DNA of 64,000 nucleotides. Origin: Sabellastarte sp. h YS-2021. Lineage: Eukaryota > Annelida > Polychaeta > Sabellida > Sabellidae. The notes beneath the pieces are model-generated. The model saw only the letters and a program-made list of their open reading frames with translations, was not told the origin of the DNA and did no database searches. The DNA lies in contig OZ024935.1 of the NCBI GenBank assembly GCA_964017235.1, forward strand, positions 4,216,001 to 4,280,000, written 5' to 3'. The translations under genes and the position numbers were made by a program. How positions within the stretch are numbered: position 1 is the first letter of the stretch; each line of letters begins with the position of its first letter. Below, piece by piece: positions 7,296 through 60,850 of this stretch.

Positions 7296-7319
7296 TACAT
7301 CTACAATGCAAAGAACATG

Positions 7320-10037: not shown

Positions 10038-10052
10038 TGCTACTCGTTTTTT
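10009..10052 (-). promoter_or_regulatory. Programmed -1 frameshift signal, gag to RT (R1)
   Basis: In the gag frame the sense strand reads TCA AAA AAC GAG TAG, containing a canonical X_XXY_YYZ heptamer A_AAA_AAC at 10052-10046. RT lies in the -1 frame and is open through the site. A perfect 7-bp stem follows after a 9-nt spacer: TGGGTGA (10036-10030) with TCACCCA (10015-10009). A second complementarity, TCACA (10029-10025) with TGTGA (10007-10003), crosses it and might form a pseudoknot. Spacing and heptamer match known -1 sites. Confidence 0.75.
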
Positions 10053-26292: not shown

Positions 26293-26301
26293 CAATTGTC
26301 A
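26293..26301 (-). promoter_or_regulatory. Relic of gag stop readthrough context in D4
   Basis: The sense strand reads AAATGACAATTGCTCTG at the gag/RT border, matching AAATGACAATTA at the gag stops of D1 and D2. The codon after CAATTG is CTC, then TGT, compatible with the QLL...C start of the D2 readthrough domain. Confidence 0.45.
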
Positions 26302-26699
26302 TTTGTGAGATGTCTGACCCCTGGCCGGACATGATGACAAAATTTATTATCTCTCCAGTCAAGTCCAGCACCGATAACAGGTTGTTGAGAGGTGTGATAA
26401 GGGAAGGTTGCCTGGCAGTAGCTTGGGACACTGTCATATCCCTGTCATATCACCAAGACCACTGACCGGTCTAAGAATTCTCTGTAACCAAATTTACATT
26501 AGGCAACTCTGTCCGGTACCAAGACTCCATAACCGGTAACTCGCTGTAAACAGTAAGTCTCTGTAACCGGCACAAAAAACTGGCAAGCTGGGGTCACCAA
26601 TGAATTTAGACGGCTACTGGGCTTTTTTTCTTTTTTTTTTTTTGTTGAGGTGAAGCACTGTACAGTAAGGAGTTCTAAGGAATGTGTAGCCAGCACCCT

Positions 26700-34799: not shown

Positions 34800-34982
34800 C
34801 TTACCTAGTGGACAGATGCATTTGTCCGGCGCCTTGCCGGTCACGCCAAACGTTAGAAAAAAACGTCCTGAGCTGGGCTCTGGCCGGGACCGGTAGCGTC
34901 CTGTTCACTCGCCAGGTGGCTGTATAGTCTCCCTGCCGGTGTACTGCGCACGCGCAGCGCATGCGCTCTTCCTCTTTTTGTT
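34800..34982. repeat. D1 ITR, 3'-side copy
   Basis: Inverse of 41115-41296 without visible mismatch. In place of the CRE found in families A2 and B it carries an NRF1-like palindrome GCGCATGCGC (34957-34966). Confidence 0.92.
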
Positions 34983-35516: not shown

Positions 35517-38500
35517 CTATTGTGTATCCTGAATCTGTTGGGCTGCCACCACCGGGCCCAAATGATACAACTCAGAATCCGCCCAGGCCAAGTCTTTCAG
35601 GTAAAACTGGGTGAATGTATTATGAGCCTTCCAGTGACAAGCGGAAAGGATCTGATCTAGAGAAATACCTCCCTGAAAAGCCCTAGAGGCTGCGAAAGCC
35701 CGGACATCGTGGGCTCTGACTTGATGTAAATCCTGAGCTTTCTGGTCGGAAAGCTGATAACACAACAGTACCGTTTGTTTAACCCAGGAGGAAATGGTGG
35801 CAGGGACAATGTCTTTCTGAAAACCTGCCTTGAAAGACACAAAAACCAGTTCCTTTCCCTGACGGGAATCCTTGGTCCGGTCCAGGTAGTAACGTAAAGC
35901 CCGTACTGGGCACAGAGACCTGTCCCCAGACAGGGACTTATCCAACGTTGGAGCTAGGGCTGGGATGACTACTGGAGCCACTGAAGTTGGTCCATCCCGA
36001 GCCAGCTGGTTTTTGGAGAGGAAACTGGGAGATGGATACAAGGAAACTTTACTCCAGTCCTCTTGGTGCCTGATATTCTTGGCTAACCATGCATGGATTT
36101 CGCTTCTTCTTTTGCCTGACCCCAGGGCCAAAAGGAAAACTGTCTTAAAGGTCAGATGCTTCAGCGAAGCCTTTCGTAGAGGCTCGAAGGGAGCCTTGGT
36201 AAGCTGGTGGAGCACTAGCGACAGGTTCCAGGAAGGGACCCCTCTTCTACCTTTCGGTTTGTCCCTATGAAAACTGTCTAACAGGCGGGTAAGGTTTTCA
36301 TCTGAGCTTATATTGAGCTTGTCATTACCCACCATATCTGCAATGGCTGTCCTATAACCATCGATGGTGCTGGGTTGCAGATTTCTTTCCTTAAAGAGGT
36401 AAAGGAGAAAATCCGCAATCTGATTTACAGAGGGTGACCTGAAGTCCACCTTGTTCGATTTACACCACTTGACAAATATGGTCCACTTTGACTTGTACAC
36501 GGCTGGTTGAACCCCTCTGAGGAGCCTCAATTCTTGCTGCCACCTCTTCAGAGAAGCCGTGTTTCCTGATAGCAGAGCTTCTAGGAGCCAAGCATGAAGA
36601 TTCAGATTCGGAAGGCTCCGGTGAACTAGCCCGTTGAAAGGCTGAGTCACTAGGTCCCTTGTTAGAGGGAGGGTGAAGGGGATCTGAACGGATAGGTCCA
36701 CCAGGTCCCAAAACCAAGGCATGTTTGGCCAACCCGGGGCAATCAGAATCATTCTGTGACAACCCTGATCCCTTATCTTTGAAACTACCTGAGGGAGCAG
36801 GGAGACTGGAGGGAATGCATAAGCGTTCAGACGCTCCCAGGACAAGCTCAGGGCATCTACTGCCCAGGCTGCCTGATCCGGGACCGGTGACACAAACCGG
36901 GGCAGTTTGTGATTGAACCTGGTCGCAAACAAGTCCACTAGCGGTGGGGGCCACCTGGAACACAACTGACTGAAAACCTGTGGGGAGAGAGCCCATTCGG
37001 TCTGAATCACTTGATTGTGCCGAGAAAGCTTGTCGGCTATCACATTTAACCGACCCGGAATGTGCCTTGCCCTTAACGTTATGCCTCTGTGATGGCACCA
37101 GGACAGGAGTCTCCAAAGGAGGGCACAGAGAGAGCCTGACCTCATACCCCCTTGTTTGTTTATGTAAGAGACCACTGTGGTATTGTCTGTTGCCACAAGA
37201 ACAATCTGACCCTTGCACAGATGCTCTAACTGTCGTAAGGCCAGAAGGACCGCTTTCATCTCGAGAAAATTTATGTGAAGGCGGCCTTCGAGGGGGGACC
37301 AAACGCCTCTTGCAGTGAAGTCTCCTAAGTGTGCGCCCCAACCTTCGTTTGAGGCGTCTGTAAATAGTTGAACGGCATGCTGAAGAGGGTGTAGGGGTTG
37401 ACCTTTCAGCACATTGGCCTCGTCCAACCACCAGTCCAAATGGGGATGGAGCGACTGGGGGACGGGAATAAGTTTCTCTAGAACTTCCGGGACATGCCAA
37501 TGTCTCTTCAAGTGCCACTGAATGGGCCTCATATGAAGGCGACCTGCACACACTTGTTTCTCGGTGGCCGTCAGGAGACCTATCAAGGACATGAACTGTC
37601 GAACCGTACAATGGTGACGGTCTTTCATGAACCTCAATTTTTCCTGAAGGGCTTCCCACCGGTCCTGAGTGGGTAGAACCCGGCCGGTGATCAGGTCGAA
37701 CCGGTAGCCTACGAAATTGAAGACCTGTTTGGGAACTAACTCTGACTTGGTCATATTTACTACCCATCCTAACTGCCGACATAGGGCCAAGAGGGTCTGG
37801 GTATGTTGTAGGCAGATCTCCGGGGAAGGGGCTCTCAGTAACCAGTCGTCTAGGTACTGGTGGATCCTGATACCCTTCGCTTGAGCCATAAGTTTCACTT
37901 CCTTGACCACCTTGGTAAACTCCAGGGGAGCTGTGGCCAGTCCGAATGGCAGGGCTGTGAACTGGAAAGTTTGATGAAAAAGGAAGAACCTGAGATACTT
38001 TCTTGATCTTGGGGCTATGGGGATGTGGAAGTAAGCGTCGCTGAAGTCCAGCGATGTGACCCACTCCCCCGCCTTCAAGGATAAGCGGATTGTCTCCGGA
38101 GTTTCCATCTTGAATGTTCCGGTATTGAGAAAGAGATTCAAACGACTTAGGTCCAAGATGGGTCTCCATTTGCCATTTGGTTTGGGAACCAGGAACAGGC
38201 GGTTGTAAAAAGCCAGGGACGACTTGACCACCACCTTTTCTACTACCAACTTTCGCATGAGGCTTACAAGAGCCTCTTTGAGATGCATGTTTTTGGACGG
38301 GTTTGCATAACCACTTTGAACCACTGGGAACCTGGTTAGAACTGGTCTTTGTTTGAAAGGCAAAGTGTAACCCCTTTTTAGGATAGAGACTACCCGGGGA
38401 TTTGAACCCATGGCTTGCCAAACTTGCCAAAACTCCTGAAGTCTGCCCCCTACATTGTGTTCGGAGACAGCACTGGGGACACTGGGCACAACAGGGGCAA

Positions 38501-39065
38501 AAACACAAGGATCTACACAAAAAACACTTTTGACAGACTTTATTTTGTTCAGACAATTGCCGGGGCTTACTCCTTTCTTTTGTAGATGCCCGTGTGAAAG
38601 AACAGAACGAACAGGACTGACAACAGGACAATACACAGCCCGAGGACTCTCGGGTAACAATGGAACTTTGTTTACAGTCTGAATTTTGTCCAAGTTTATG
38701 TTTGAAGACACACTTTTGTCCTGACACTGAGGGTCCAACTGAACCTGATGTATTGACTTTACTGTTGGACCACCTAGATAATTGTCATTTATATGGCTTA
38801 AAAGACTGCCCTTTAGAAAAACGGGGGTTAGAACCCCGGCCACGTCCCCTTCCTCTGGATCTATTTCGGCCAAACTGTCTCCATGGCTGACTCTGCTGTT
38901 GAGAGGATTGGTCATTGGAAGATGTTTGCTTCCTATCCTTACGGTCGTAAGGCTTATATCTTTGCGTACCCTTCCAAGTTGCGTGCTGAGTAGCACCCGG
39001 TCCGGGCCTCTGAGCAACGCTTTCAAATTTTTGGATATCCTGCTCCGCAGACATGATGGCTGCAT
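35517..39065 (-). CDS. D1 Pol: RT-RNase H-methyltransferase-YR fusion
   Basis: 1182-residue open frame; the homologous part starts near residue 205 (GGRLQEFW, ~38450). RT: WRPILDLSRLN, SLDFSDAYFHIP, LPFGLATAP and HQYLDDWLL (~residue 400). RNase H: FTDASNEGWGAHL (~570), ATDNTTVVSYIN, RHIPGRLNVIADKLSR (~670). DIRS-type methyltransferase: VDLFATRFN, LIAPGWPNMPWFWDL (~775). YR: SGKRRSEIHAW (~988), HDVRAFAAS (~1120), CHWKAHNTFTQFYL with Tyr (~1150). In D2 and D3 the YR lies in another frame; here a net 2-nt difference just before VYKSKW fuses it to RT. Pol lies +1 relative to gag and probably depends on recoding. The part upstream of ~38450 overlaps gag and the Cys-rich domain and may not be translated. 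Confidence 0.93.
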   Translation of the reverse strand: MQPSCLRSRISKNLKALLRGPDRVLLSTQLGRVRKDISLTTVRIGSKHLPMTNPLNSRVSHGDSLAEIDPEEGDVAGVLTPVFLKGSLLSHINDNYLGGPTVKSIHQVQLDPQCQDKSVSSNINLDKIQTVNKVPLLPESPRAVYCPVVSPVRSVLSHGHLQKKGVSPGNCLNKIKSVKSVFCVDPCVFAPVVPSVPSAVSEHNVGGRLQEFWQVWQAMGSNPRVVSILKRGYTLPFKQRPVLTRFPVVQSGYANPSKNMHLKEALVSLMRKLVVEKVVVKSSLAFYNRLFLVPKPNGKWRPILDLSRLNLFLNTGTFKMETPETIRLSLKAGEWVTSLDFSDAYFHIPIAPRSRKYLRFFLFHQTFQFTALPFGLATAPLEFTKVVKEVKLMAQAKGIRIHQYLDDWLLRAPSPEICLQHTQTLLALCRQLGWVVNMTKSELVPKQVFNFVGYRFDLITGRVLPTQDRWEALQEKLRFMKDRHHCTVRQFMSLIGLLTATEKQVCAGRLHMRPIQWHLKRHWHVPEVLEKLIPVPQSLHPHLDWWLDEANVLKGQPLHPLQHAVQLFTDASNEGWGAHLGDFTARGVWSPLEGRLHINFLEMKAVLLALRQLEHLCKGQIVLVATDNTTVVSYINKQGGMRSGSLCALLWRLLSWCHHRGITLRARHIPGRLNVIADKLSRHNQVIQTEWALSPQVFSQLCSRWPPPLVDLFATRFNHKLPRFVSPVPDQAAWAVDALSLSWERLNAYAFPPVSLLPQVVSKIRDQGCHRMILIAPGWPNMPWFWDLVDLSVQIPFTLPLTRDLVTQPFNGLVHRSLPNLNLHAWLLEALLSGNTASLKRWQQELRLLRGVQPAVYKSKWTIFVKWCKSNKVDFRSPSVNQIADFLLYLFKERNLQPSTIDGYRTAIADMVGNDKLNISSDENLTRLLDSFHRDKPKGRRGVPSWNLSLVLHQLTKAPFEPLRKASLKHLTFKTVFLLALGSGKRRSEIHAWLAKNIRHQEDWSKVSLYPSPSFLSKNQLARDGPTSVAPVVIPALAPTLDKSLSGDRSLCPVRALRYYLDRTKDSRQGKELVFVSFKAGFQKDIVPATISSWVKQTVLLCYQLSDQKAQDLHQVRAHDVRAFAASRAFQGGISLDQILSACHWKAHNTFTQFYLKDLAWADSELYHLGPVVAAQQIQDTQ
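38446..38450 (-). promoter_or_regulatory. D1 G-run at the Cys-rich/RT frame change
   Basis: Sense TGTAGGGGGCAGA. Protein conservation with D2 lies in the gag/Cys frame before this point and in the +1 frame (VGGRLQ) after it. D2 has G7 at the same place. A +1 shift site is inference. Confidence 0.5.
38451..38784 (-). CDS. D1 Cys-rich readthrough domain
   Basis: About 111 codons, in the gag frame, directly behind the gag TGA and without any stop. It includes ~20 Cys, with the block KVCQKCFLCRSLCFCPCCAQ. The D2 equivalent is KVCEKCFFCKSLCFCPKCAK. Cys spacing is conserved here, whereas the overlapping RT-frame translation is not, so this is the selected frame. There is no ATG at its start. Expected product: a C-terminal extension of Gag, or the linker in Gag-Pol, probably binding zinc and nucleic acid. 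I do not recognise a named family. Confidence 0.65.
38776..38790 (-). promoter_or_regulatory. D1 leaky gag stop, TGA CAATTA
   Basis: Sense TATAAATGACAATTA with the stop at 38787-38785. Stop + CAATTA fits the CARYYA rule of tobamovirus-type readthrough. D2 has the same 15 bases. Confidence 0.7.
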
Positions 39066-40998
39066 CAGGAAAGAGACCGTATCCGAACAAGGGGGCGTTC
39101 CTTAGCAAGTTCATGGTATCCTGTTTGACGCCCGGTTTCACAAAATCAAGATATGAGTCTCTCCTTAAGAGAACCAGGTTGGCCATATTCACAAACAAAC
39201 TGTCCGCCAAATGCTGAAGAGACGTGCCCATGGCCACCGACACCTTTTGATGAAAGGCCATGAGGTCACGCAGGTCATTCAAAGCATTGGCCACTTCCTG
39301 CGAACACTTTCCCTTGCCAAGACGAGAGGATAACAAAGAGATGTTTTGTGACATCTTCTCCTGAAGTTCAGTGGAACAGCGACTGAAGCCTGCCGCATGA
39401 TTAACGATATAACTGTCTTCACGTGCGGCACGTTCCCACCTGCGCAGGGATTCTTGGGCAATAGGCCTGGAGGGAGGGCCTGTGGACGGGTAAGCAGAGG
39501 CACGAGTTATCCTTGGGAAATGAGAATTAACCTTGGCCTCAGTGTTTCTCCAGTTGAAAACAGAACGACCAGGACGATGTGGTCCGTCAGTTTTAATCAA
39601 GTGCATTTTGTACCATTTCTCTTGAGACTTAGGCACCTTGATGAACTGGTCACGTCGCAAACCTGCCGAATCTTGTGAACGAGATGGGTAACCCTCTGCG
39701 ACCGTGAGATTCAACCTTTCCAACTTCTGGCACAACCAGTCGTCTGGGGGCATGGCCACTGAGATGCGTGTGGGTTTTCTGGGATTCTTCCCTTTCCACG
39801 GGTTATTTGATTTGTCCGGTTCTGAAAAGTCTGTTTCAAAAGCCGGAATGTGGTGCCAACCCATAAACGCTCTCACAGAACGTACCGTCTCCCTGTAAGA
39901 CATATCTTCAGTCTGCTCCGGTGGGTCCGCCACATCAGAAAAATGACCGTCCTCAGAACCGGAACCGGAAGCAGACCGGTCTAAATCATCGTCAGATACT
40001 TGTTCATAATGTTCTTGAGGAAAAGCACAGGCACCGGCACCGGTGATATCAAGACTGGTATCCTGTTCCGGTGGAGCCCGTGGAGTGGAAAATGCAGACT
40101 GGAAGAGTGAACCGGAAGACTGTTTCAAATCCTGACTCTGGCTAGACCTGTCCCCTTTAGGAGCAACTGACTGATGAGCAGACTCCGGTCCGGAGCTGGC
40201 ACCAGGCAAAGGGGAAGAAGAAGGAGCTTTAGTTTTAGACCTTGACACCGGTGTAGGTGACCGGTCACGTCTTTTCTCCGGTTTGGAAACCTCTTTGCTG
40301 CTCTTAGATTTAGAAGAAGATTTGAGGTCACTTTTATCAGAATGTTTGTCTTTTCTGGATTTGTGAGATTTCTTCTTATCCTTGGCATCTACCGGGGTAG
40401 CAGCAATGGGAGCCTCAACAGCTACCGGTACCTTCACCGGACCGGTGGGACGGGTAGCTGGAGCTAAGAAGGGGTTATCAGAAATGAGATTCTGAGTGTC
40501 GACCGGCTTGACTGAAGATACAGTGGTGGAGAACACGTTACCTCTAGAAAGAAGTGCCTCCATCCTAGCAAACTGCTCTGACCATTTATCCGCAATGGAT
40601 GCCAACTGGTCTGAGGTAACAAAACTAGCCGGTTGTTGAGATGAAGAAGGTGGAGTAGCAGGGGGAATAACAGAAGACTGAGCCTGCTGGTCAGAAGGAG
40701 ATTGAAAAGTTGGTTCATTATCCATACCTTCAACCGGCTGTAAAACTGTAACTTCTTTCGGGGAAACTAATAAACCTGCTTTCTTGTCTCTTCTAATCTT
40801 ATAAATTGGAGTAGACAACATTTCCTTCTGAGCCGGAGTAAAGCCATCACAAATCTTACACTGCTTGTCCTTCACACAATTGTCTTCCCCTATAAGCTTT
40901 TCGCGGCACCGCGCACATTTTTCATGCAAGTCGAAAAGAGCCATAACATGGCCACAGGAACCCCTTCTTTGTCCCTTCTTATCCCCCGGAGATGCCAT
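38785..40998 (-). CDS. D1 Gag
   Basis: About 737 residues from the ATG encoding MASPGDKKG; this start is chosen over a Met six codons upstream because D2 Gag begins MASPGQRKG. An N-terminal Cys/His cluster (CGHVMALFD, CARCREK, CKICDGF) resembles DIRS Gag zinc fingers. A Ser/Pro/Lys-rich linker follows, then a conserved helical block (SYRETVRSVRAFMGWHHIP, DDWLCQKLERLNL, QEKWYKMH, SYIVNHAAGFSRC, RRDSYLDFVKPGVK), and an Arg/Gly-rich RNA-binding tail (RGRGRGRGSNPRF). It packages the RNA in the particle. Ends in the TGA discussed above. Confidence 0.9.
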   Translation of the reverse strand: MASPGDKKGQRRGSCGHVMALFDLHEKCARCREKLIGEDNCVKDKQCKICDGFTPAQKEMLSTPIYKIRRDKKAGLLVSPKEVTVLQPVEGMDNEPTFQSPSDQQAQSSVIPPATPPSSSQQPASFVTSDQLASIADKWSEQFARMEALLSRGNVFSTTVSSVKPVDTQNLISDNPFLAPATRPTGPVKVPVAVEAPIAATPVDAKDKKKSHKSRKDKHSDKSDLKSSSKSKSSKEVSKPEKRRDRSPTPVSRSKTKAPSSSPLPGASSGPESAHQSVAPKGDRSSQSQDLKQSSGSLFQSAFSTPRAPPEQDTSLDITGAGACAFPQEHYEQVSDDDLDRSASGSGSEDGHFSDVADPPEQTEDMSYRETVRSVRAFMGWHHIPAFETDFSEPDKSNNPWKGKNPRKPTRISVAMPPDDWLCQKLERLNLTVAEGYPSRSQDSAGLRRDQFIKVPKSQEKWYKMHLIKTDGPHRPGRSVFNWRNTEAKVNSHFPRITRASAYPSTGPPSRPIAQESLRRWERAAREDSYIVNHAAGFSRCSTELQEKMSQNISLLSSRLGKGKCSQEVANALNDLRDLMAFHQKVSVAMGTSLQHLADSLFVNMANLVLLRRDSYLDFVKPGVKQDTMNLLRNAPLFGYGLFPDAAIMSAEQDIQKFESVAQRPGPGATQHATWKGTQRYKPYDRKDRKQTSSNDQSSQQQSQPWRQFGRNRSRGRGRGRGSNPRFSKGQSFKPYK

Positions 40999-41114
40999 GA
41001 CACTTGTTACACACAACTAACACAAATATTTGAAGCAATAAGCTTGAGAAGAGTATATAAATTAATATTTTTTTTAAAGTTTCTCTTAAATCCCAAGCGT
41101 TCTTCACGCGCCAA

Positions 41115-41296
41115 ACAAAAAGAGGAAGAGCGCATGCGCTGCGCGTGCGCAGTACACCGGCAGGGAGACTATACAGCCACCTGGCGAGTGAACAGGACGC
41201 TACCGGTCCCGGCCAGAGCCCAGCTCAGGACGTTTTTTTCTAACGTTTGGCGTGACCGGCAAGGCGCCGGACAAATGCATCTGTCCACTAGGTAAG
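41115..41296. repeat. D1 ITR, 5'-side copy
   Basis: Identical inverse of 34800-34982; GCGCATGCGC at 41131-41140. The 5' leader to gag is only ~120 bp. Confidence 0.92.
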
Positions 41297-41661: not shown

Positions 41662-41834
41662 CTTACCTACCAGACGATAGCTATAGCCCGGCGCCAGCCG
41701 GTCCCGCCAAACGAAAGAAAAAGACGTCCTGGGTTTCACCCCGGGCAGGACCGGTACACTACACTCCACTCGCCAGGTGGCCTAGTTCCTGCCTCACTCG
41801 CCAGAGGGACGTGACGTCATAGCATCTTTTTCGT
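41662..41834. repeat. D2 ITR, 3'-side copy
   Basis: Identical inverse of 47591-47763; TGACGTCA at 41812-41819 and CGCCAAACGAAAGAAAAAGA. Confidence 0.92.
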
Positions 41835-42336: not shown

Positions 42337-45300
42337 CTAGTGGTGGATCTGCTGGGCAGCCACCACAGGACCCAAGTGAAAAAGCTCCTTATCTGCCCAG
42401 GCAACATCCTTAAGGTAAAACTGTGTAAAGGTGTTGTGGGACTTCCAGTGGCATGCTGCTAGAATCTGGTCCAGAGATATGCCACCTTGAAAGGCTTTGG
42501 AGGCCGCAAAGGCCCTAACATCATGGGCCTTAACCTGATGTAAGGCCAAGGAATCTTGGTCAGAGAGATCATAACACAACACTACTGTTTGTTTGATCCA
42601 GGACGAGATAGTGGCAGGAGAGATGTCCTTGTTAAAACCTTGTTTGAATGAAACAAAAACTAACTCCTTTCCCGTTCTTAGGGCCTGCCTTTTGTCCAGG
42701 TAGTAGTGAAGAGCCCGAACGGGGCAAAGGGATCTGTCTTCCTTTAAAGACTTATCCAGAGTGGGGGCTAAGGCCGGGATGACCACAGGGGCCACGCACT
42801 CTGGTCCCTCTTTTGCCAAGTGATTTTTCGCCAAGAAGCTTGGTGAAGGGTAGAGGGAAACTTTGGACCAATCAGCTTGGTGTCTGATATTTTTGTTTAA
42901 CCAAGCGTGAATCTCACTCCTGCGTTTTCCCGAAGCCAGGGCTAGGAGAAAAACAGTTTTGAAAGTAAGGTGTTTCAGAGACGCCTTTCTGAGTGGCTCA
43001 AAAGGCGCTTTTGTAAGCTGGTGTAAAACCAGGGAGAGGTTCCAAGCAGGAACCCCCCGGCGCCCTTTGGGTCTATCTCTGTGAAAACTGTCTAACAGTC
43101 TAGTCAAATTGTCATCCTTGCCGACATTAACCGAGGTATTTCCCAGTTTGTCTGCAATGGCTGACCTGTAACCATCAATAGTGCTGGGCTGGAGATTCTT
43201 CTCCTGGAAAAGATGCAGGAGGAAATCTGCTATTTGTTTTATAGATGGGTTCCTGAAGTCCACCTGACTTGTTTCGCACCATCTAACAAAAAGGGCCCAC
43301 TTCGCTTCGTAGACTGCTCTGGTTGAACGTCTTTGAGGCGCCTCAATTCTTGACGCCACTGGGCTAGAGAACCCTTGCTCCCTGATTGTCTGGGCTCTAG
43401 GAGCCAGGCATGGAGATTTAGGCTTGCCAGATCCCTGTGACGGGCCTTGTTGAAAGGTTGGGTCACTAGATCTGGATGGTGTGGAAGACAAAGAGGAACC
43501 ATCGCTGACAGCTCTACTAGGTCCCAAAACCAAGGCATGTTGGGCCATCCCGGAGCAATCAGGATTGCTCTGTGATACCAGTGATCTGACAGCTTGCTGA
43601 CCACCTTCCCCATCAGAGACACTGGAGGGAAAAGGTACATGTCCAGGCCTTCCCAGGACATTGTCAGAGCGTCCACTGACCAGGCCTTTGGGTCTGGAAT
43701 TGGGGACACAAATTGGACTAGTTTGCAGTTGTACCTTGTTGCAAACATGTCCACTTGGGGATAATGCCAAGTTCGACAAAGGATGTCGAAGATCTCCTGA
43801 TGGAGGGACCACTCCGTCTGAATGATCTGTCCCTGGCGAGACAACTTGTCTGCAATTACATTTAGACGGCCCGGAATGTGTCTGGCCTTCAGTACTATTT
43901 GTCTGAGATTGCACCAACATAGGAGCCGCCAAAGAAGGGCACAGAGTGAACCTGACCTCATACCTCCCTCCTTGTTGATGTATGCCACAACTGTAGTGTT
44001 GTCTGTGGCAATCAGGACGACCTTTCCTTGCACTAATTGTTGGAATCTTTTTAGTGCTAACAACACGGCTTTTAGTTCTAAGAAGTTTATGTGCAACTTG
44101 CTTTCGGGCACTGACCAAGTACCGCTTGCTGTGAAGTCGCCTAAGTGAGCACCCCAGCCTTCTTTTGAGGCGTCTGTAAAGATTTGCACTGCGTGTCGTA
44201 GGGGGTGTAAGGGTTGACCCTTTAGGACATTTTCTTCTTGGGTCCACCACTGCAGGTACTGATGGAGAGAACTCGGAATTGGAATCTCCTTTTCCAGAGA
44301 TTCCGGGACTCTCCAGTGTTTCTTGAGGTGCCACTGAATAGGTCTCATGTGCAGTCTGCCTAGGGGCACCTGTTTCTCTGTCGCAGTGAGTAGACCTATA
44401 AGAGACATGAAGGTTCTCACTCGGCAAGATCTGTTCTGTAATAACCCTGTTACTTTTTGTTGAAGGGCTTCCCAACGGTTTTGAGTAGGTCTGACCAATC
44501 CGTTGAGTAGGTCGTACTGGTAGCCTACAAAATCGAAGACTTGTTGGGGTTCCAGTTCTGATTTTTGCATGTTTACCATCCAGCCCAACTCCTGGCAAAG
44601 GGCTAGGAGGGACTGGGTTCCCTGGTAGCAAGATTCTCTGGTAGGGGCTCGAATCAACCAGTCGTCTAGGTACTGGTGGATCCTTATACCTCGAGACTGA
44701 GCCATTAGTTTTACCTCTTTGACTACACAAGTGAACTCCATTGGAGCTGTTGACAGGCCAAAGGGAAGAGCCCGAAATTGGTAAGACTGGTTCTGGAAGT
44801 GGAACCTGAGGTATTTTCGGGAGTTGACATGGATTGGAATGTGGAAGTAGGCGTCGCTGAAGTCCAGCGATGTCACCCACTCTCCCTGTTGTAAGGAGGT
44901 TCGAATTGTCTCCGGGGTTTCCATTTTGAATGTTTTTACGCATAAAAACTGATTTAGAGTACTGAGGTCCAAGATTGGCCGCCACTTTTGGTTCGGTTTG
45001 GGAACAATGAATAGTCTGTTGAAGAAGGCTAGAGAGGTTCGAACCCTGACCCTCTCTACTGCCTTCTTCTTGATTAAGGCTTGTAGAGCCCCTTGCAAGT
45101 GGGAGTCTCTGATGGGATTGGCATAGCCGCTTACTATCAGGGGATCCCTCACTAGGCAAGGTCTGAGATTGAATGGGAGAACATAACCCTCTTTTAGTAT
45201 GGACACTACTCTTGGGTTTGCACCTAGTCGTGCCCATACTTCCCAGAACAATTGTAGTCGCCCCCCCACTGGCTGGGCATTTGCAACACTGTGGGCATTT

Positions 45301-45459
45301 GGCACATTTGGGGCAAAAACACAGTGATTTACAAAAGAAGCACTTTTCACAGACTTTATTGTATTTTTCATGTTTGATATTGGTCTTACGCCTTTCTTTT
45401 GCGGCTGCCCACTTTTTGATTTTGTTACAGAATGTACAAGACAAGCAACACTTTGACAT
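42337..45459 (-). CDS. D2 long ORF: Cys-rich domain ... tyrosine recombinase
   Basis: 1040 codons in the gag frame. Residues ~1-65 from the first ATG continue the Cys-rich readthrough domain. Residues ~70-690 overlap RT-RNase H-MT in another frame and look like its shadow (low conservation with D1 beyond what RT imposes). From ~700 comes a full DIRS YR: AVYEAKWALFVRWCE, STIDGYRSAIADK, SGKRRSEIHAW (Arg), HDVRAFAAS (HxxR) and CHWKSHNTFTQFYL (His/Trp and Tyr). The stretch is open in all 1040 codons and continues upstream to the gag TGA, so one readthrough event alone could link Gag to YR; separate initiation or splicing is an alternative. Confidence 0.85.
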   Translation of the reverse strand: MSKCCLSCTFCNKIKKWAAAKERRKTNIKHEKYNKVCEKCFFCKSLCFCPKCAKCPQCCKCPASGGATTIVLGSMGTTRCKPKSSVHTKRGLCSPIQSQTLPSEGSPDSKRLCQSHQRLPLARGSTSLNQEEGSREGQGSNLSSLLQQTIHCSQTEPKVAANLGPQYSKSVFMRKNIQNGNPGDNSNLLTTGRVGDIAGLQRRLLPHSNPCQLPKIPQVPLPEPVLPISGSSLWPVNSSNGVHLCSQRGKTNGSVSRYKDPPVPRRLVDSSPYQRILLPGNPVPPSPLPGVGLDGKHAKIRTGTPTSLRFCRLPVRPTQRIGQTYSKPLGSPSTKSNRVITEQILPSENLHVSYRSTHCDRETGAPRQTAHETYSVAPQETLESPGISGKGDSNSEFSPSVPAVVDPRRKCPKGSTLTPPTTRSANLYRRLKRRLGCSLRRLHSKRYLVSARKQVAHKLLRTKSRVVSTKKIPTISARKGRPDCHRQHYSCGIHQQGGRYEVRFTLCPSLAAPMLVQSQTNSTEGQTHSGPSKCNCRQVVSPGTDHSDGVVPPSGDLRHPLSNLALSPSGHVCNKVQLQTSPICVPNSRPKGLVSGRSDNVLGRPGHVPFPSSVSDGEGGQQAVRSLVSQSNPDCSGMAQHALVLGPSRAVSDGSSLSSTPSRSSDPTFQQGPSQGSGKPKSPCLAPRAQTIREQGFSSPVASRIEAPQRRSTRAVYEAKWALFVRWCETSQVDFRNPSIKQIADFLLHLFQEKNLQPSTIDGYRSAIADKLGNTSVNVGKDDNLTRLLDSFHRDRPKGRRGVPAWNLSLVLHQLTKAPFEPLRKASLKHLTFKTVFLLALASGKRRSEIHAWLNKNIRHQADWSKVSLYPSPSFLAKNHLAKEGPECVAPVVIPALAPTLDKSLKEDRSLCPVRALHYYLDKRQALRTGKELVFVSFKQGFNKDISPATISSWIKQTVVLCYDLSDQDSLALHQVKAHDVRAFAASKAFQGGISLDQILAACHWKSHNTFTQFYLKDVAWADKELFHLGPVVAAQQIHH

Positions 45460-45815
45460 TTTACAGAGTTCTTGACAAGCACATGAAAATCTGTCTGTTT
45501 TACATCTGACACATAATACTCCAATTTTGTTTGTAACTCCGGAGGAATTCTGCAGTAATTGTCATTTATAATTTTTGGGATCCTTGGAGCCTCGCGAACC
45601 GCGACCGGGTTGACCACCCCTGCCTCTGCCGCGTGCTCTGCCCCGGCTACCAAATGATTTCCATGCGGGGAGATCTTTCCCGGAAGCACCGGTGGTACTT
45701 GAGTCGTCTTGCTTCCAACTAGTGGAGTAAGGCTGGTAGCGATGCTGCTTTTTCTGTACACCCGCGAACCCAGCACGGCCCGGACCGGGCTGGTTGGTAC
45801 GCTTGTGTGTTTCAA
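43239..45815 (-). CDS. D2 RT-RNase H-methyltransferase
   Basis: 858-codon frame, +1 relative to gag; homologous protein starts at VGGRLQLFW (~45262). RT: WRPILDLSTLN, SLDFSDAYFHIP, LPFGLSTAP, HQYLDDWLIR (~residue 383). RNase H: FTDASKEGWGAHL (~549), ATDNTTVVAYIN, RHIPGRLNVIADKLSR (~648). Methyltransferase-like: VDMFATRYN, LIAPGWPNMPWFWDL (~755). It stops shortly after the YR begins in the other frame, giving a ~90-bp overlap with YR proper. The N-terminal ~185 codons overlap gag and the Cys-rich domain and are probably not used. Confidence 0.92.
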   Translation of the reverse strand: MKHTSVPTSPVRAVLGSRVYRKSSIATSLTPLVGSKTTQVPPVLPGKISPHGNHLVAGAEHAAEAGVVNPVAVREAPRIPKIINDNYCRIPPELQTKLEYYVSDVKQTDFHVLVKNSVKCQSVACLVHSVTKSKSGQPQKKGVRPISNMKNTIKSVKSASFVNHCVFAPNVPNAHSVANAQPVGGRLQLFWEVWARLGANPRVVSILKEGYVLPFNLRPCLVRDPLIVSGYANPIRDSHLQGALQALIKKKAVERVRVRTSLAFFNRLFIVPKPNQKWRPILDLSTLNQFLCVKTFKMETPETIRTSLQQGEWVTSLDFSDAYFHIPIHVNSRKYLRFHFQNQSYQFRALPFGLSTAPMEFTCVVKEVKLMAQSRGIRIHQYLDDWLIRAPTRESCYQGTQSLLALCQELGWMVNMQKSELEPQQVFDFVGYQYDLLNGLVRPTQNRWEALQQKVTGLLQNRSCRVRTFMSLIGLLTATEKQVPLGRLHMRPIQWHLKKHWRVPESLEKEIPIPSSLHQYLQWWTQEENVLKGQPLHPLRHAVQIFTDASKEGWGAHLGDFTASGTWSVPESKLHINFLELKAVLLALKRFQQLVQGKVVLIATDNTTVVAYINKEGGMRSGSLCALLWRLLCWCNLRQIVLKARHIPGRLNVIADKLSRQGQIIQTEWSLHQEIFDILCRTWHYPQVDMFATRYNCKLVQFVSPIPDPKAWSVDALTMSWEGLDMYLFPPVSLMGKVVSKLSDHWYHRAILIAPGWPNMPWFWDLVELSAMVPLCLPHHPDLVTQPFNKARHRDLASLNLHAWLLEPRQSGSKGSLAQWRQELRRLKDVQPEQSTKRSGPFLLDGAKQVRWTSGTHL
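45261..45267 (-). promoter_or_regulatory. D2 G7 run at the Cys-rich/RT frame change
   Basis: Sense CCAGTGGGGGGGCGAC. The Cys frame reads AGT GGG GGG GCG; the RT frame, one base later, reads GTG GGG GGG CGA (VGGR). Candidate +1 shift; G-runs also vary by polymerase slippage. Confidence 0.5.
45264..45561 (-). CDS. D2 Cys-rich readthrough domain
   Basis: About 99 codons behind the gag TGA in the gag frame, with no stop. Pattern: VLCVRCKTDRFSCACQELCK, CCLSCTFC, a basic stretch KERRKTNIKHEKYNK, then VCEKCFFCKSLCFCP and CAKCPQCC. An ATG lies one third of the way in (45459), so internal initiation cannot be excluded. Compared with D1, the Cys positions and the basic linker are kept. Confidence 0.65.
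45553..45567 (-). promoter_or_regulatory. D2 leaky gag stop, TGA CAATTA
   Basis: Sense TATAAATGACAATTA, stop at 45564-45562, identical to D1 across 15 bases although the flanking sequences differ. Confidence 0.7.
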
Positions 45816-47478
45816 AGTTGTTTATCTCATCTTCCGCTTTTCTTATGATGTCATCTGGGAATAAAGCCCGGGTTTGAAGAGGGCAATTCCTGAGAGAGGA
45901 AAAGGTATCCGGTTTCACTCCTGCCCTCAGGTGATCCAGATAGGAATCTCTGCGGACTAGAGTCAAGTTAGCCATTTGGACGAAAGTAAAGTCCGAAAGG
46001 TGCTGAAGAGATTTCCCGACCGCAAAACTGATATTCTGATTAAATGCTGTTAAAAAGTGAAGTTCGTCCAGAGCCCCCTGGGCTTTTGCGGAGGATTTAC
46101 CTTTGCCAAGTTCTGCTTGTAGGGTTTTTAACTGTTCCTGAACAGCATCCTGCACTTTGGTTATACATCTATTGAAACCAGCTGACTGGTTACAAATATA
46201 GCTTGTTTCTTTGGCAGCCTTTTCCCATTTGCGGAGAGTTTCCTGAGACAGTGGTCGGGAAGTAGGTTGAGATGAAGCAATAGTAGATTTAGCAACCCGG
46301 GCAAAGGAACTATTGAGCTTTGCGGCATCGTTGGGCCAGGAAGTTACGTATTTACCAGGCCTAGTTATGTCTTTGTTTTCTGCCGGGTGTATCCCGTACC
46401 ATCTTGTCTGAGATTTTGGTGGTCGGAGATATTGATCAACATGTAGACCGCCCGGTTCTGTTGATTTTGACGGGTAGCCTTCAATTAGTACTAGATTGAG
46501 GTTTTCCAATTTTTTGCATAACCAGTCCTCTGGTGGTAAGTCAATGGAAACTTTTCCAACCGGTTGAGCCCGGTGGCCAACCCAGGGGTTGTCAGATCTG
46601 GAGGTGGGAGTGTACTCAAGGTCTGGAATGTGATTCCAGCCCATAAAGGCACGGACACCCCTTACCGTCTCCCTGTAATTCTGATCTTCACTTATGGTTT
46701 TGTCAATGTCTGGAGAGTCTTGTTCAGATGGGTCTAGTACTTCTTCTTGATCAGAAACTTCACCCTCTTCTGAATGCTCCGGGGGTGGTTGAGTGATAGA
46801 TGAGGCCACCGGGCCGGAAGAGCTCTGAGAAGAGAATACCGGTTCCGGGTCTGGTTGCGGATAAACATTCTCCAGAGGAGAGGTCATATCCATAGAGCTG
46901 GTGATAGTAGCTGTTGCCTTTGTTCTATCCGTGCCATAAGCCGGACCGGCTTGGCCGGAAGGAACGGAGGGTAGCAGAAAAGGTGCTTGTGACAAAGAAC
47001 CAGCTGGAGCCTGATGCGTGACCGGTGCTTGGACCGGAGTGAAGGTAGGCTGTGGAGAGGGACGATGGCCCATGGTGATGAGTGCCTCCAAACGCGCCAT
47101 GCGAGTAGACCATTTATCATCTAGATCTTTTAAATCTTGACGGAAGTTTGGTTGAGGCAAGGTGAACTCCGTTTCAGTGTCATGAGGAGGGGAAGATGGA
47201 GCAACGTCCTGTTTTTCGAGCTGTGACACTACAGTAACGGTAGAGGGATCCACAAGTGATTCCTTACTCTTTAACTTCTCTTTACGGAGTTTGTAAGTCG
47301 GAGTAGAAAGCTGAAGCAATTGTTCGGGAGAAAGATTGTCACAAAACTCACAACTTAATTTGAGGACGCAAGGGTCGTCCCCCAAACCTTTGTCCCTACA
47401 TCTGGCACATCGAGAGTGTGGATCAAAATTAGCCATGATATGTCCGCAGGCTCCTTTTCTCTGTCCTGGAGATGCCAT
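45562..47478 (-). CDS. D2 Gag
   Basis: 638 residues starting MASPGQRKGACGH. N-terminal Cys/His cluster (CGHIMANFD, CARCRDKG, CEFCDNL), acidic/Pro-rich linker, conserved block (YRETVRGVRAFMGWNHIP, EDWLCKKLENLNL, SYICNQSAGFNRC, RRDSYLDHLRAGVK) and a Gly/Arg-rich tail (GSRGRARGRGRGGQPGRG). ~100 residues shorter than D1 Gag, the difference lying in the linker. ATG start, ~110 bp from the ITR. Confidence 0.92.
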   Translation of the reverse strand: MASPGQRKGACGHIMANFDPHSRCARCRDKGLGDDPCVLKLSCEFCDNLSPEQLLQLSTPTYKLRKEKLKSKESLVDPSTVTVVSQLEKQDVAPSSPPHDTETEFTLPQPNFRQDLKDLDDKWSTRMARLEALITMGHRPSPQPTFTPVQAPVTHQAPAGSLSQAPFLLPSVPSGQAGPAYGTDRTKATATITSSMDMTSPLENVYPQPDPEPVFSSQSSSGPVASSITQPPPEHSEEGEVSDQEEVLDPSEQDSPDIDKTISEDQNYRETVRGVRAFMGWNHIPDLEYTPTSRSDNPWVGHRAQPVGKVSIDLPPEDWLCKKLENLNLVLIEGYPSKSTEPGGLHVDQYLRPPKSQTRWYGIHPAENKDITRPGKYVTSWPNDAAKLNSSFARVAKSTIASSQPTSRPLSQETLRKWEKAAKETSYICNQSAGFNRCITKVQDAVQEQLKTLQAELGKGKSSAKAQGALDELHFLTAFNQNISFAVGKSLQHLSDFTFVQMANLTLVRRDSYLDHLRAGVKPDTFSSLRNCPLQTRALFPDDIIRKAEDEINNFETHKRTNQPGPGRAGFAGVQKKQHRYQPYSTSWKQDDSSTTGASGKDLPAWKSFGSRGRARGRGRGGQPGRGSRGSKDPKNYK

Positions 47479-47590: not shown

Positions 47591-47763
47591 ACGAAAAAGA
47601 TGCTATGACGTCACGTCCCTCTGGCGAGTGAGGCAGGAACTAGGCCACCTGGCGAGTGGAGTGTAGTGTACCGGTCCTGCCCGGGGTGAAACCCAGGACG
47701 TCTTTTTCTTTCGTTTGGCGGGACCGGCTGGCGCCGGGCTATAGCTATCGTCTGGTAGGTAAG
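47591..47763. repeat. D2 ITR, 5'-side copy
   Basis: Identical inverse of 41662-41834; TGACGTCA at 47606-47613. Confidence 0.92.
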
Positions 47764-48020: not shown

Positions 48021-49239
48021 TTAATGCTGAATCCAACCGAAAATAGAAAATACCAGTCTGAGTCCCATTTACAGTGCCCCGATCCCGAAGACCGGGCCTG
48101 TAACGAGCCAAAAACCTAAGTAAAATGAGGGACAGTGCTAAACCGTAAAAGGCCTTAGAGGCCGCGAAGGCCCGGATGTCATGCGGTTTAACTTGGACCA
48201 AGTCCAAGGCTTGTTGGTCTGCTTGTTTGTAACAAAGTAGAATGGTTTGTTTCAACCAGGAAGAGAGTGTAGCGGGTCTGATGTCTGAGGTATGTCCTTT
48301 CTTAAAGGAGAAGAAAAGGAGAGACCGAGACCCTCTCAGGTCTTTTGTTCGGTCCAGATAAAACCTCTGGGCCCGCACGGGACACAGGGTCCTGTCTTCT
48401 TTAAATTGTCTATCTACAATGGTAGTCAAAGCAGGAACAGTCACCGGAGACACACTTTCAGAACCTTCTCTTGCTAGTTGGTTTTTGGCTATGAAATCAG
48501 AAGAAGGGAACAAGGCAACCTTTTCCCATTGGCCTAGATTAGATACCTTGTTTGCGACCCAGGCATGGATTTCACTGCGGCGCTTGCCGGAGGCCAAAGC
48601 TAGCAAGAAAGCAGTTTTGAGGGTAAGATGTTTCAGGTCTGTGTCTTTTATGGGCTCAAATGGTGCTTTTGTGAGCTCGTTGAGGACAACCGAAAGGTTC
48701 CACTTGCGTAAATTTCTGGAACTTTTGGGACGATCCCTGTGAAAACTGGAGAGTAACCTATGAAGGTCTGCATTATGTGCAATATGGTGGGCCGTTGGGC
48801 CCAAAGTGTCAATGATTGCAGTCCTGTAACCATTAATGGTCAAGGGGCGCCTGTTTAGGTCTTGGTACAGGTACATGAAAAAATCTGAGATTTGTTTCAC
48901 AGATGGAGTGGAGAAATCCACCGAATTTTCTCTGCACCATTTTTCAAATAGGGCCCACTTTGACCTGTAGATGGTCCTTGTTGATGATCGCTGAGGGGCA
49001 GCAATTCTCTCTGCCACCTCCACAGAGAAGCCTTGTTCTTGGAGTTGTCCACTCCTAGACACCAGGCGTGGAGGTTCAGCTGCTGGGGGTTGTTGTGGAA
49101 CACATACTTGTGGGACTGTTTGAGTAGGGTCGTTGACACTGGGAGTTGTAGTGGGATCTCTGTTGAGAGCTGCACTAGGTCCCAAAACCAGGGCATCCCT
49201 GGCCAGCCTGGGGCTATCACGATGATCAGGCAATGACAT
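48007..49239 (-). pseudogene. D3 tyrosine recombinase, C-terminus deleted
   Basis: 410-codon frame. The YR part runs from TIYRSKWALFEKWCR through NGYRTAIID, SGKRRSEIHAW (Arg) and KPHDIRAFAAS (HxxR), then at AFYG jumps into unrelated codons (LALSLILLRF...). D7 continues with GVSVDQIMQAYHWKPHNTF. A deletion has fused the gene to 3' non-coding sequence and removed the W/H and Tyr residues, so the protein would be inactive. Like D2, the YR frame continues upstream over the MT region. Confidence 0.88.
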
Positions 49240-50390
49240 TGCTTGATCTTTTGGATCACCTTGTGAAGGAGAGCCGTAGGAGGGTAAGCATAGGCCGTGA
49301 GGTTGGTCCAGTTTATGTTTAGAGCATCTATGTCCCAGCCCTTGGGTCTGGGATAGGAGACATGTACAGTGGGAGCTTGTGGTTCAGGTGAGTAGCAAAT
49401 AAGTCTACATGAGGTGTGAACCACTTCTGGCAGATCTGTTTGAACACCTGTGGGTGCAGAGACCATTCTGTTGACTGCACTTGGTTGGACCTGGATAGTA
49501 GGTCGGCCATCACATTCAGGCACCCTGGGATATGCCTGGCTTTCAATGTTATGTGGTAGTGATGACACCAGGTCATGATCTTCCACAGGAGAGCACACAT
49601 CTCTGCTGAGTGAGTTCCTCCTTGTTTGTTGATGTAGGCTACCACTGTTGAGTTGTCCATTGCAACTAACACTGTTTGGTTCTGGTACTGGTCCTTGACG
49701 TCTCGAAGGGCCAGGGAGACCGCCTTCAATTCTCCTAGCACATTTATGTGTAGCCCTTTTTTTTTTTTTGATCTGACCACAGACCCTTTGTAAAATTTTG
49801 GTCTAAGTGAGCGCCCCAACCTTCGTTTGAGACGTCGGTAAAGAGTTGGATACTGTGGTCTTTGGGATGAAGGTCTGCGCCTTTCATCACGTTTGAGGGA
49901 TTTTGCCACCAATCCAGGTGGGCTGCAATGGATTCTGTCAAAGGAAGGAGGTTGTCCAGGGACTGAGGATATCTCCAGTGCTCCTTGAGATGAAACTGAA
50001 AGGGCCTCATGTGAAGGAGTCCCTCCGGGACCATTTTCTTTGTTGAGGCTAGCAACCCAATTAGCGACATCAAACATCTTGCAGTCAAAACATGTTTTGA
50101 CTTGAGGAGTAGGATCAAATCCTGGAGTTTGAGCCATCTCTCTTGAGTGGGTTTTACAAGGGCTGAATCTAGATGGTACTCGTAGCCCATGAACGAGAAC
50201 ACCTGAGTAGGTTTCAGTTCTGATTTTTTTTTTTTTTTTTGATTTATTATCCACCTCAAGGACTGGGTTAGGTCTACCACTGCCTGAGTGTTCACTGGGC
50301 TTCCTCCTGAGACTGGGATCTGATCAGCCAGTCGTCCAGTATTGGTGAATTCTGAGTCCTCTTGAGAGGGCCATTAGTTTCACTTCCTTT
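48897..50390 (-). pseudogene. D3 RT (C-terminal)-RNase H-MT, broken
   Basis: Three overlapping frames carry the pieces: YEYHLDSALVKPTQERW and MSLIGLLAST (RT C-terminus), FTDVSNEGWGAHLDQNF, AMDNSTVVAYINKQGG, HIPGCLNVMADLLSR (RNase H), DALNINWTNLTAYAYPP and IAPGWPGMPWFWDLV (MT). The YLDD region (~50330) reads out of frame, the RT N-terminus is missing, and two long plus-strand T-runs (49758-49770, ~50226-50241) sit inside the RT/RNase H sequence. Confidence 0.85.
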
Positions 50391-54619: not shown

Positions 54620-56330
54620 TATGGACCTGCTGAGCAGCCACTACTGGGCCCAATTGAAAAGGGCTCTGAACCAGCCCCAGCCACATCCTTCAAAGAGAAC
54701 TGTGTGAAGGTATTATGTTACTTCCAGTGGCCAGCTGGAAAATTGTTCTAAGGAGACTCCCAACTGGAATGCCTCAGAAGCAGCAAGGGGCCCTGACAAC
54801 ATGGGGTTTAACCCGCTGTAGGGTGAGGGCCTCCTGACAGTGGCAGGTGAGGTGTCTTGTCAAAAACCTTTCTAAAGGGAGACAGACTAACTCATTGTTC
54901 TGTTTGAGATCCTGTCCCAATAAGTAGCCCAGTGGTCTGAACAGACACAGGACCTATCAGACGAGGGACTTATCCAGAGTTGGGGCCAGGGTTGGTATAA
55001 CCACTGGGGCCACACTGTCCGGACTCTCCTTGGCCAGCTGGTTCTTGGAAAAATGACTGGGTGCTGGGTACAAAGACACCTTTGACCAGTCTAACTGGTG
55101 TCTGATGTGTTTCTTTTACCAAGTATGAATCTCACTCCTGTGTTTGCCAGAACCAAGGGTGAAGAGGAAAACCGTCTTGAAGGTCAATGCTTCAAAGGGA
55201 GCCCTGCCAATAGGTGCAGCACCAGGGGGAGGTTCCAGAAGGGGATGCCCCTACAACCTTTAGGTCTATCTCTGTAAACTGTCCAAGAGACGAGCAAGAT
55301 ACTCATTGTGCTGAAATTTGTTGGTGAGATACCCAGTTGTCAGCAATGACTGATCTGGTTGATCCTCTTTCAGGAGCCTCAATTCCTACTGCCACTGCTT
55401 TAGAGAAGGCCTGCTCCTCGATTGCTGAGGCTCTAGGAGACATGCATGCAGATCTAATTTTGACAGATTCCAGTGAGGAGTCTGACTAAATGGTTGAGAG
55501 AGCAGGTTGGACAGGTACCCAGGAATCTGACTTGACATGATCAAGAGATTCCAGAACCAGGCATGTTGGACCACTTGGCGCAATCAGAGTGATTCCCCTG
55601 CATGGGTAGTCCTGCAATTTCTCCACCACTTGCCCAAGATGGCTACCAGTGGGAAGGCATATGAGTCCACATCTTCCCATGGTAGACTGTATCATTGTCC
55701 ATATTGGGGGATCTGTCCCCAGTGATGCAAGTTGAGACAGTTTGTTGTTGAGCCAGGCGGTAAAAAACAGGCCAATAAGGCCTAGTGCCACCAGAAGCAT
55801 ATTGTTTGGAAAAAACTCTGACAGGAGGGACCATTCTGTCTGCTCTGTCTAGTTGCTTGAGACTGGATAGCTTGTGTGCTATGTCATTCAGCCCCCTGGA
55901 ATGTGTCGGGCTACAGTCACCTGTTTCCTGGAATACCAGGACAGGATTCCCCAAAGAAGGGCACAAAGAGGGCCTGACTTCATGTCCCCGACCCCCTCTT
56001 CCTTGATACAGGCAACCACCGTTGTGTTGTCTGTAGTTATGACAGTAATATTGTTCAACCAGATGTCCTGGAATTCTTAAAGGGCCAAATGACCACCTTA
56101 GTTCCAGATACTTTAATGTGTAACTAGCTTCTGGAAGGGACCATGGTTCCCCTTGCAGTATGTTCTCCTAAGTGAGAAACCCCACCCTTCTTGATGCATC
56201 TGTAAGGACTGAAGAGCATATTTAGTAGGTGTAATGGTTGACCATGAAGCCACATAGCCATTGAAAAACATTGGTGACCTCTGGTCTGATTAACAGATAT
56301 TTTTCCCATTGCTTGAGTTTTGAAAACTGG
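54620..56330 (-). pseudogene. D6 YR and RT-RNase H-MT, broken
   Basis: Many short frames. RT/RNase H remnants include FLEYQDRIPQRRAQ and CLRLDSLCAMSFSPLECVGL (plus-strand shadows of the HIPG region), ALSPYRC (TDAS region) and IALLNMLF. The MT piece reads LIAPSGPTCLVLESLD, and HACLLEPQQSRSRPSLKQWQ marks the link to YR. YR similarity continues through the 54900-55300 region. Clearly inactive. Confidence 0.7.
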
Positions 56331-59033: not shown

Positions 59034-59824
59034 TTGAAAATTTTAATTACTTAAATGTAGCTTTTATAAGCTACAAGCTTACCATGTAGTACTGAATGCT
59101 TTACTGGTAGCCGCGAGGCACCACAATCAATGTCTAAGAAAAAAAGACATTTATACTTGGCCGTAGCCTCAGGTTGTCGTCACGTGATCTGCCCCTTTTG
59201 TTACAACTTTTCTCGTTGAGATTTAAACCCATATCTCTTAGCTGTAATACCGCAAGGAGGCAGGGTGGGACTCTCCTCAGTCCTCCATTGCGCTACAATA
59301 GCTTACCATGTGGGACTGAATACTGAATCCAACCGTCCGGGGGAGGGATTACAGCTGAGACTGGCAGTCTGTTTTTTCTTAGAATTTTGATAATAATAGT
59401 AGAATGAAAGATCGAAAGTACCAGTCTGAGTCCCGTCTACAGGGCCCCAATCCCAAAGACCGAGCCTGTAGAAGCCAAAAACCTGAATGAATGACAGTGC
59501 TAAAAAACTGTCAGGGTGTTTGACGAGAAGGAGATGTGTACCCTAGATACACAGACGGGGTCAGCCCCAAGGACGATCACGGAAGAGCCCGAGCTTAAGG
59601 CTCGGGTACTGACTAAAATGACAACCTTAAGGTCCTTAATACAATGTACAATTATAATGATTTAAAGATTAGATAGACCTTACCGGATACACCCTGATGA
59701 GGTAGACGTATACCTAGACCCTGGGCTTAGACTCCTGAGGACTTGGTTGTAGCGGATGTGGCCCCCCCCCCCCTTCCTTTCTTACCGAGGATGACTGGAC
59801 TGAGGAGAAGGGTCTAGGACCTGT

Positions 59825-60850
59825 TGTGCCGTTACTACTGGTCCCAGATACAGATTGTTGTCATTGTTCGACCAAGTAAGGTCTTTTAGATAAAATTGGT
59901 AAAAGTGTTGTGAGGTTTCCAGTGATAGGCTTGCATGATCTGGTCCACCGATACCCCACCGTAAAACGCCTTAGAGGCTGCGAAGGCCTGAATGTCATGC
60001 ACCTTGACTTGGACTAAATCCAAGGCTTGCTGGTCTGCTTGTTTATAACCAAGTAGGATGGTTTGTTTCAACCAAGAAGAGAGAGTAGCGGGTCTGATGA
60101 CTGATGTATGTCCTTTCTTGAAGGAAATGAAAAGGAGGGACCGGGAACCTCTTAGGTCCTAGGTTCGGTCCAGATAGTACCTCAGGGCCCGCACCGGACA
60201 CAGGGTCCTGGTCCTCTTGGACTGTCTATCCACAATGGTAGTCAAAGCTGGGATAGTCACCGGAAACACACTTGAGAATCTTCTCTTGCTAGTTGGTTTT
60301 TGGTTATGAAGTCAGAAGATGGGAACAAGGAGACCTTTTCCCAGTGGCCTTGATTAGATACTTTGTTTGCAACCCAGGCATGGATTTCGCTGCGGCGCTT
60401 GCAGGAGGCCAAAGCTAGCAAGAAAGCAGTTTTGAAAGTGCAATGTTTGAGGTCTGTGTGTTTCATAGGCTCAAAGGGTGCTTTTGTGAGCTCATTGAGA
60501 ACAACAGAAAAGTTCCACTTGGGGAGATTTCTGGGACTTTTGGGGGGATCCCTGTGGAAACTGGAGAGCAACTTAATTATGAAGGTCCTCATTATGAGCA
60601 ATATGTTGGCCCGATGGGCCCAAGGTGTCAACAATGGCAGTCCTGTAACCATCAATGGTGGAGGGGCGCCTGTTTAGGTCTTGGTACAGAAACATGAAGA
60701 AATCTGAGATTTGTTTCACAGATGGAGTGGAGAAATCCACCGAATTTTCTCTGCACCATTTTTCAAATAGGGGCCACTTGATTTGTAGATGGTCCTTGTT
60801 GATGACCGCTGAGGTGCAGAAATTCTCTCTGCCACTTTCACAGAGAGGAG
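59825..60850 (-). pseudogene. D7 tyrosine recombinase, broken
   Basis: C-terminal frame: VKVHDIQAFAAS (R of HxxR replaced by Q), GGVSVDQIMQAYHWKPHNTF with the region for Tyr following (NFI). Upstream frame: SSFHRDPPKSPRNLPKWN, LALASCKRRSEIHAW (Arg). Frameshifts near 60170-60260, 60590 and 60660. The HxxR to HxxQ change alone would impair catalysis. Confidence 0.85.

Follow-up and report, generated by a model that had tools for sequence, protein, structure and literature searches.

The ORF that carries the tyrosine recombinase (YR) in DIRS1-like retrotransposons overlaps pol, as outlined in the available portion of PMC3266345. In natural cases, the stop codon that precedes the hexamer CARYYA and is read through is generally UAG, according to the accessible text of PMC3542737. 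UGA-CARYYA placed in the OPRL1 context gave about 15% readthrough, with UGA being similar to UAG and UAA much poorer (accessible text of PMC4132726). The parts of PMC9210276, PMC5941688, and PMC5633606 that are accessible make no mention of readthrough in YR retrotransposons. The sequence-only reading of the locus described here knew of no such report, and a search of titles and abstract openings, a scope that takes in little of the subscription literature, likewise returned no description of readthrough in YR retrotransposons, DIRS elements included.

DIRS-type elements in the window

We analysed a stretch of 64,000 nucleotides (G000:C11:4216001-4280000), hereafter the window, and searched the genome to which it belongs (1.79 Gb, 647 contigs). 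The minus strand of the window carries D1 and D2, two elements of the DIRS type whose reading frames stay open over long distances, and all coding features of these elements given below lie on that strand. Both have the inverted terminal repeats (ITRs) that are a feature of DIRS1-like elements. In D1, the 3′ arm (34800-34982; 183 nt) is 100% complementary to the 5′ arm at 41114-41296, and in D2 the 3′ arm (41662-41834; 173 nt) is 100% complementary to the 5′ arm at 47591-47763; the inverted pairs I6, I7, I8, and I11 near the 3′ ends match parts of the ITRs and may represent internal complementary regions. In D1, Gag (38788-40998) starts with the Met of MASPGD and has the Lys preceding the stop as its last residue; it is homologous to the Gag of D2 (45565-47478), which starts with the Met of MASPGQ and ends at the corresponding Lys. 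RT (PF00078) scored above the Pfam cut-off in both elements and RNase H (PF17917) above it in D2 and below it in D1, while the tyrosine recombinase match (PF00589) stayed under the cut-off in both (E = 0.0012 in D2 ORF2 and 0.0018 in D1) and PF02899 just exceeded its cut-off in D1. No methyltransferase family was found behind RNase H at E 0.1 in Pfam, where a weak PCIF1_WW match appeared in D2 only.

As the sequence-only reading had proposed, the gag frame is open past the stop in both elements, and the Cys-rich stretch behind the stop is conserved between them. In D2, this gag-frame ORF2 has 1074 codons (42337-45561) and comprises the Cys-rich domain (45283-45450), the overlap with RT, and the part assigned to YR (42337-43260). 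RT and RNase H are read in an open +1 frame that spans 43239-45821, with the RT anchor near 45269, so that the YR ORF and pol share a long overlap. In D1, the gag-frame ORF2 has 774 codons (36460-38784), in which the Cys-rich domain (38467-38637) is followed by the RT overlap, and the +1-frame ORF (35517-39101) contains RT and RNase H together with YR. YR and RT share the +1 frame in the window copy of D1; in D2 and in P0201, a close relative of D1, YR is in the gag frame. We read the window copy of D1 as carrying a frame change near YR and not as a separate design.

The window contains further elements. Remnants of three more DIRS elements, with ORF2 matches, lie at 48121-50224, 54621-56250, and 59812-62163, and no Gag match was obtained in them with 10 Gag queries. 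A Ngaro-like element occupies 6324-11729 on the minus strand; its RT ORF (7320-10061) is closed by a TAG, behind which a YR ORF of 331 residues (6324-7319) follows in the same frame. The stops of this element misfit CARYYA, the RT ORF having TAG CATGTT and the upstream ORF TAG CATTGG.

The stop context at the gag end

The Gag genes of D1 and D2 share a 15-base end, TATAAATGACAATTA (TATAAA-TGA-CAATTA), at 38779-38793 in D1 and 45556-45570 in D2; the coordinates given earlier for the D1 motif, 38776-38790, were 3 bases off. The TGA lies at 38785-38787 in D1 and 45562-45564 in D2, and the CAATTA hexamer that follows it (38779-38784 and 45556-45561) satisfies CARYYA in both, as had been claimed. 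A third element, D4, had been said to keep the motif at the same place. AAATGACAATTG is indeed present at 26293-26304 on the minus strand, but the copy is decayed, with stops within its frames, and the last base misfits CARYYA; D4 was excluded from the junction counts. The 9-mer TGACAATTA is not rare, with 1.07 occurrences expected per window and at least 2 seen in 28 of 100 shuffles. Its frequency within the window was dropped as evidence, since about one is expected by chance. Because the bare 9-mer is not rare, the weight is carried by its position at the gag end and by its conservation in other families.

We compared the junction DNA of six families from one genome. TGA followed by CARYYA was present in 78 of 81 gag-frame junctions, a count in which the copies are related and come from a single genome and are not independent trials, and from which the decayed D4 and one further copy (L080, see below) were left out. 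The hexamers seen among the fitting junctions were CAATTA, CAATCA, and CAGTTA, which differ at R and Y only; the point of the survey is that nearly all differences, at the level of the sequences compared, sit on R and Y. D1 is represented by its window copy, which fits (1/1). The genome search with D2 ORF2, in which the best candidates were scored, gave at least 43 places with an identity of 98-100%, of which 39 lack internal stops, and among 28 of the 43 scored places the stop was TGA in 28/28 and TGA-CAATTA in 27/28. The exception, L021 (G000:C7:72329708-72335026), has lost six junction bases and reads TGA then CTGCAG. Family F10 (query P0010) had TGA-CAATTA in 20/20 junctions, sampled from 66 matches. 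For F90 (query P0090), 23 of 71 matches were picked for spread of identity, and 21/23 fit CARYYA (17 CAATCA, 3 CAATTA, 1 CAGTTA); the misfits were AAATTA in L057 and CCATCA in L063, a copy whose domain also contains a stop. F72 (query P0072; 5 of 65 matches sampled) had CAATCA in 5/5, and F117 (query P0117; 5 of 63 matches sampled) fit in 4/4 gag-frame junctions, 3 with CAGTTA and 1 with CAATCA. In the remaining F117 copy, L080 (G000:C14:50633120-50633600), Gag runs into the RT frame, in an open frame listed at 1560 codons, and TGACAGTTA is retained but lies outside the frame read.

Random stop contexts were thus not seen among the relatives, and further stops close downstream occurred in single copies only, mainly in the older F90 set (4/23 in the stretch read). 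The proposal that the identical bases reflect selection for readthrough gains support from this retention of the motif at the gag end across six families. Against this, in F90, where the Lys codon and TGA are invariant, the diversity of the whole hexamer was 0.103, hardly below the 0.119 of the preceding 57 bases, and fell mainly on the Y position. Common ancestry or chance, without any function, could be invoked for the shared bases, as the families are related and the 9-mer turns up at the frequency given above. However, families with a Gag 35-40% identical to that of D2 retain CARYYA amid differing surrounding bases (Gag identity to D2: P0010 64%, P0072 and P0090 40%, P0117 35%), and the gag frame past the stop is under selection, as described below; we assign this explanation a vanishingly small probability.

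The junction was also visible at the protein level. Relatives in the protein collection numbered 252 at E 0.001, of which 120 were listed, with full-length members of about 1040 residues. The RT anchor was found in 113 of 343 proteins, 74 of these with at least 100 residues upstream, and the +1-frame junction peptide ND[NS][YHQ] was present in 70 of the 74 proteins with enough upstream sequence. This peptide requires the DNA to be TGA-(C/T)A(A/G)(T/C)(T/C)A. Among the four proteins without it, P0342 has IDNY, which is still compatible, and P0275, P0306, and P0311 seem to be without the junction. Among 30 representatives that are under 80% alike, off-motif residues varied (1.4-3.7 bits from +5 and 1.9-3.4 before -1); the motif columns of this set were used for anchoring, and their constancy therefore rests on the 70/74 count. 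Gag C-termini among 120 listed proteins on the Gag side were YK in 54, FK in 8, and HK in 5, and many others look truncated; P0039 has NKK at its Gag end.

These peptides raise the alternative that the overlapping +1 frame needs (I)NDNY in an RT precursor and that the readthrough context is a by-product. RT is read in the +1 frame, and N and D are invariant there wherever the junction is covered (IDNY in P0342). Yet the peptide varies, Y/H/Q and N/S, precisely at the degenerate CARYYA positions, and the neighbouring +1 residues vary freely. Position +4 is free in the +1 frame, where C or T would serve (GAC or GAT), yet it is C in 80/81 junctions, and the sequence behind the peptide has the gag frame, and not +1, as its coding frame. 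A requirement for the peptide is on these grounds very improbable as the source of the motif.

Coding frames and start codons behind the stop

We compared substitution patterns in the three frames using pN/pS from simple counts, in which the overlap of frames is ignored. Over the 147 nt preceding the RT anchor, pN/pS was lowest in the gag frame in 10/10 pairs of five families, with summed values of 0.45 (0.28-0.62) for the gag frame compared with 0.82 for +1 and 1.26 for the third frame. When the entire stretch from the stop to the RT anchor was taken, the difference was less marked: D1 versus D2 gave a tie (0.64 in the gag frame and 0.65 in +1), and two other pairs gave 0.55 and 0.44 in the gag frame versus 0.80 and 0.79 in +1. 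Inside RT, the values were 0.14-0.30 in the +1 frame and 1.56-2.57 in the gag frame. By this contrast, the gag frame encodes the Cys-rich domain and the +1 frame encodes RT. The domain consists of an AKER-K stretch flanked by two Cys clusters (26 representatives of 60 sequences aligned); an AlphaFold2 prediction was uninformative, with a mean pLDDT of 40.5, and a search of viral contigs with the D2 YR gave no relative.

The gag frame also remains open over RT. There were 0 gag-frame stops across this overlap in D1 (655 codons), D2 (676), F10 (405), and F90 (399). When RT codons were permuted among positions of identical amino acid, the shuffle means were 26.8, 24.2, 13.2, and 12.7, respectively, and 0/2000 shuffles reached 0. 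A gag frame that is stop-free over RT, yet with unconserved amino acids, is what one would predict were ribosomes obliged to traverse it on the way to YR, and it seems from these codon comparisons to be kept open for access to YR. The sequence-only reading had understated the case in this respect: the frame behind the stop makes up a full ORF with the tyrosine recombinase at its end, and its maintenance as an open frame is measurable. The +1 frame from the stop to RT has no stops, yet shows no depletion relative to shuffles (294, 1140, and 226 of 2000 as low). Stops of the third frame over RT exceed the shuffle means (58 versus 40.8 in D1, 55 versus 43.9 in D2, 32 versus 24.7 in F10 copy L029, and 34 versus 30.1 in F90).

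A separate start of ORF2, by reinitiation or internal initiation past the gag stop, would also give access to this frame. The stop shares bases with an ATG (AAATGA), and gag-frame ATGs lie downstream in D2 (+105), F10 (+117), and some copies of F72. Among the five F72 copies, such ATGs were found at +9 in two, at +222 (inside the domain) in three, and at +255 in one, with none in one copy. Reinitiation at the overlapping ATG was rejected, as that ATG belongs to the third frame, where a stop follows shortly in both D1 and D2. Considering AUG starts, no gag-frame ATG between the stop and RT is common to the families; it is absent in the copies read of 3/6 families, namely D1, L049 (F90), and four F117 copies. 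A separate start would moreover leave CARYYA unexplained, and we consider it distinctly unlikely. Nor did the RT frame have a start codon common to the families. Its ATGs were at -278, -128, and +376 in D1, +193 in D2, -20 in F10, -209 in L049, and +13 in F117, with none in the F72 stretches, and those at -290 in D2 and -266 in F10 are followed by +1-frame stops. If the stop were instead taken out by splicing or RNA editing ahead of translation, CARYYA would not be required, and this explanation is highly unlikely as well.

Nested RNA structure past the stop, computed over 121 nt counted from the final gag codon, did not differ from shuffles (z = -0.42 in D1 and +0.28 in D2). Type I readthrough does not depend on downstream structure. 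In six aligned sequences, no clear slippery site was seen at which ribosomes might move into the RT frame.

Proposed expression of the recombinase and comparison with known systems

Motif conservation, gag-frame coding of the domain, stop exclusion over RT, and the lack of a common ATG are direct observations, and from them we infer readthrough, its rate, and the fusion protein. The gag UGA is very probably a programmed type I readthrough stop (tobamovirus type, UGA-CARYYA) that yields Gag and Gag-Cys-YR, and, given the readthrough reported for UGA-CARYYA in the OPRL1 context (accessible text of PMC4132726), Gag-Cys-YR is its most likely product. The majority of ribosomes would terminate at the UGA and release Gag. 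A fraction would insert an amino acid at the UGA and continue in the gag frame through the Cys-rich domain, which we conjecture to be possibly metal-binding. These ribosomes would then traverse more than 600 codons that overlap RT/RNase H, open but without selection on the sequence, and finish with the tyrosine recombinase, which would give a Gag-Cys-YR fusion whose ratio to Gag is low and fixed. RT/RNase H, whose +1 frame starts just past the Cys domain, would be reached via a second event and is probably also recoded, conceivably by a +1 shift of the read-through ribosomes. A layered recoding of one RNA, in which UGA readthrough gives Gag-Cys-YR and a +1 shift past the Cys domain gives Gag-Cys-RT-RNase H, is a tentative proposal that we hold to be somewhat less than an even prospect; if it is true, the YR/pol overlap is a translated passage without sequence constraint, open only for reaching YR. 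Together, these comparisons suggest that the DIRS-type elements here exploit a leaky gag stop to produce the enzyme that inserts their DNA. A conserved readthrough stop would offer a testable mechanism for expression of the YR ORF, a fixed ratio of Gag to Gag-YR, and a reason for the open overlap.

Tca2 of Candida albicans is a retrotransposon of the LTR type, a different order from DIRS. It resembles the present elements in having a UGA between gag and the following ORF and differs from them in its potential pseudoknot, and the bypass of its UGA is called unclear in the accessible text (PMC2194720). DIRS1-like elements, as presented in the available portions of PMC3266345 and PMC9210276, share with D1 and D2 Gag, RT/RNase H, YR, and ITRs, with the recombinase in the 3′ end of a YR ORF that overlaps pol; unlike our account, those portions give the overlap without a readthrough stop, an initial Cys-rich domain, or an expression route for the YR ORF. 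The type III gag-pol readthrough of murine leukemia virus, in the available text of PMC3542737, similarly places Gag and an enzyme ORF in one frame across one leaky stop. That stop is UAG with a 3′ pseudoknot, in contrast to UGA-CARYYA with no nested structure beyond chance, and the in-frame enzyme here is a tyrosine recombinase, with RT in +1. The type I tobamovirus cases in the same portion of that source (PMC3542737) likewise have a stop followed by CARYYA and a conserved frame behind it, but they are from plant viruses and generally have UAG, whereas here UGA stands between a retrotransposon gag and a recombinase ORF. Readthrough at this stop would take the type I mechanism beyond plant viruses and into a large retrotransposon group, where UGA replaces the usual UAG.
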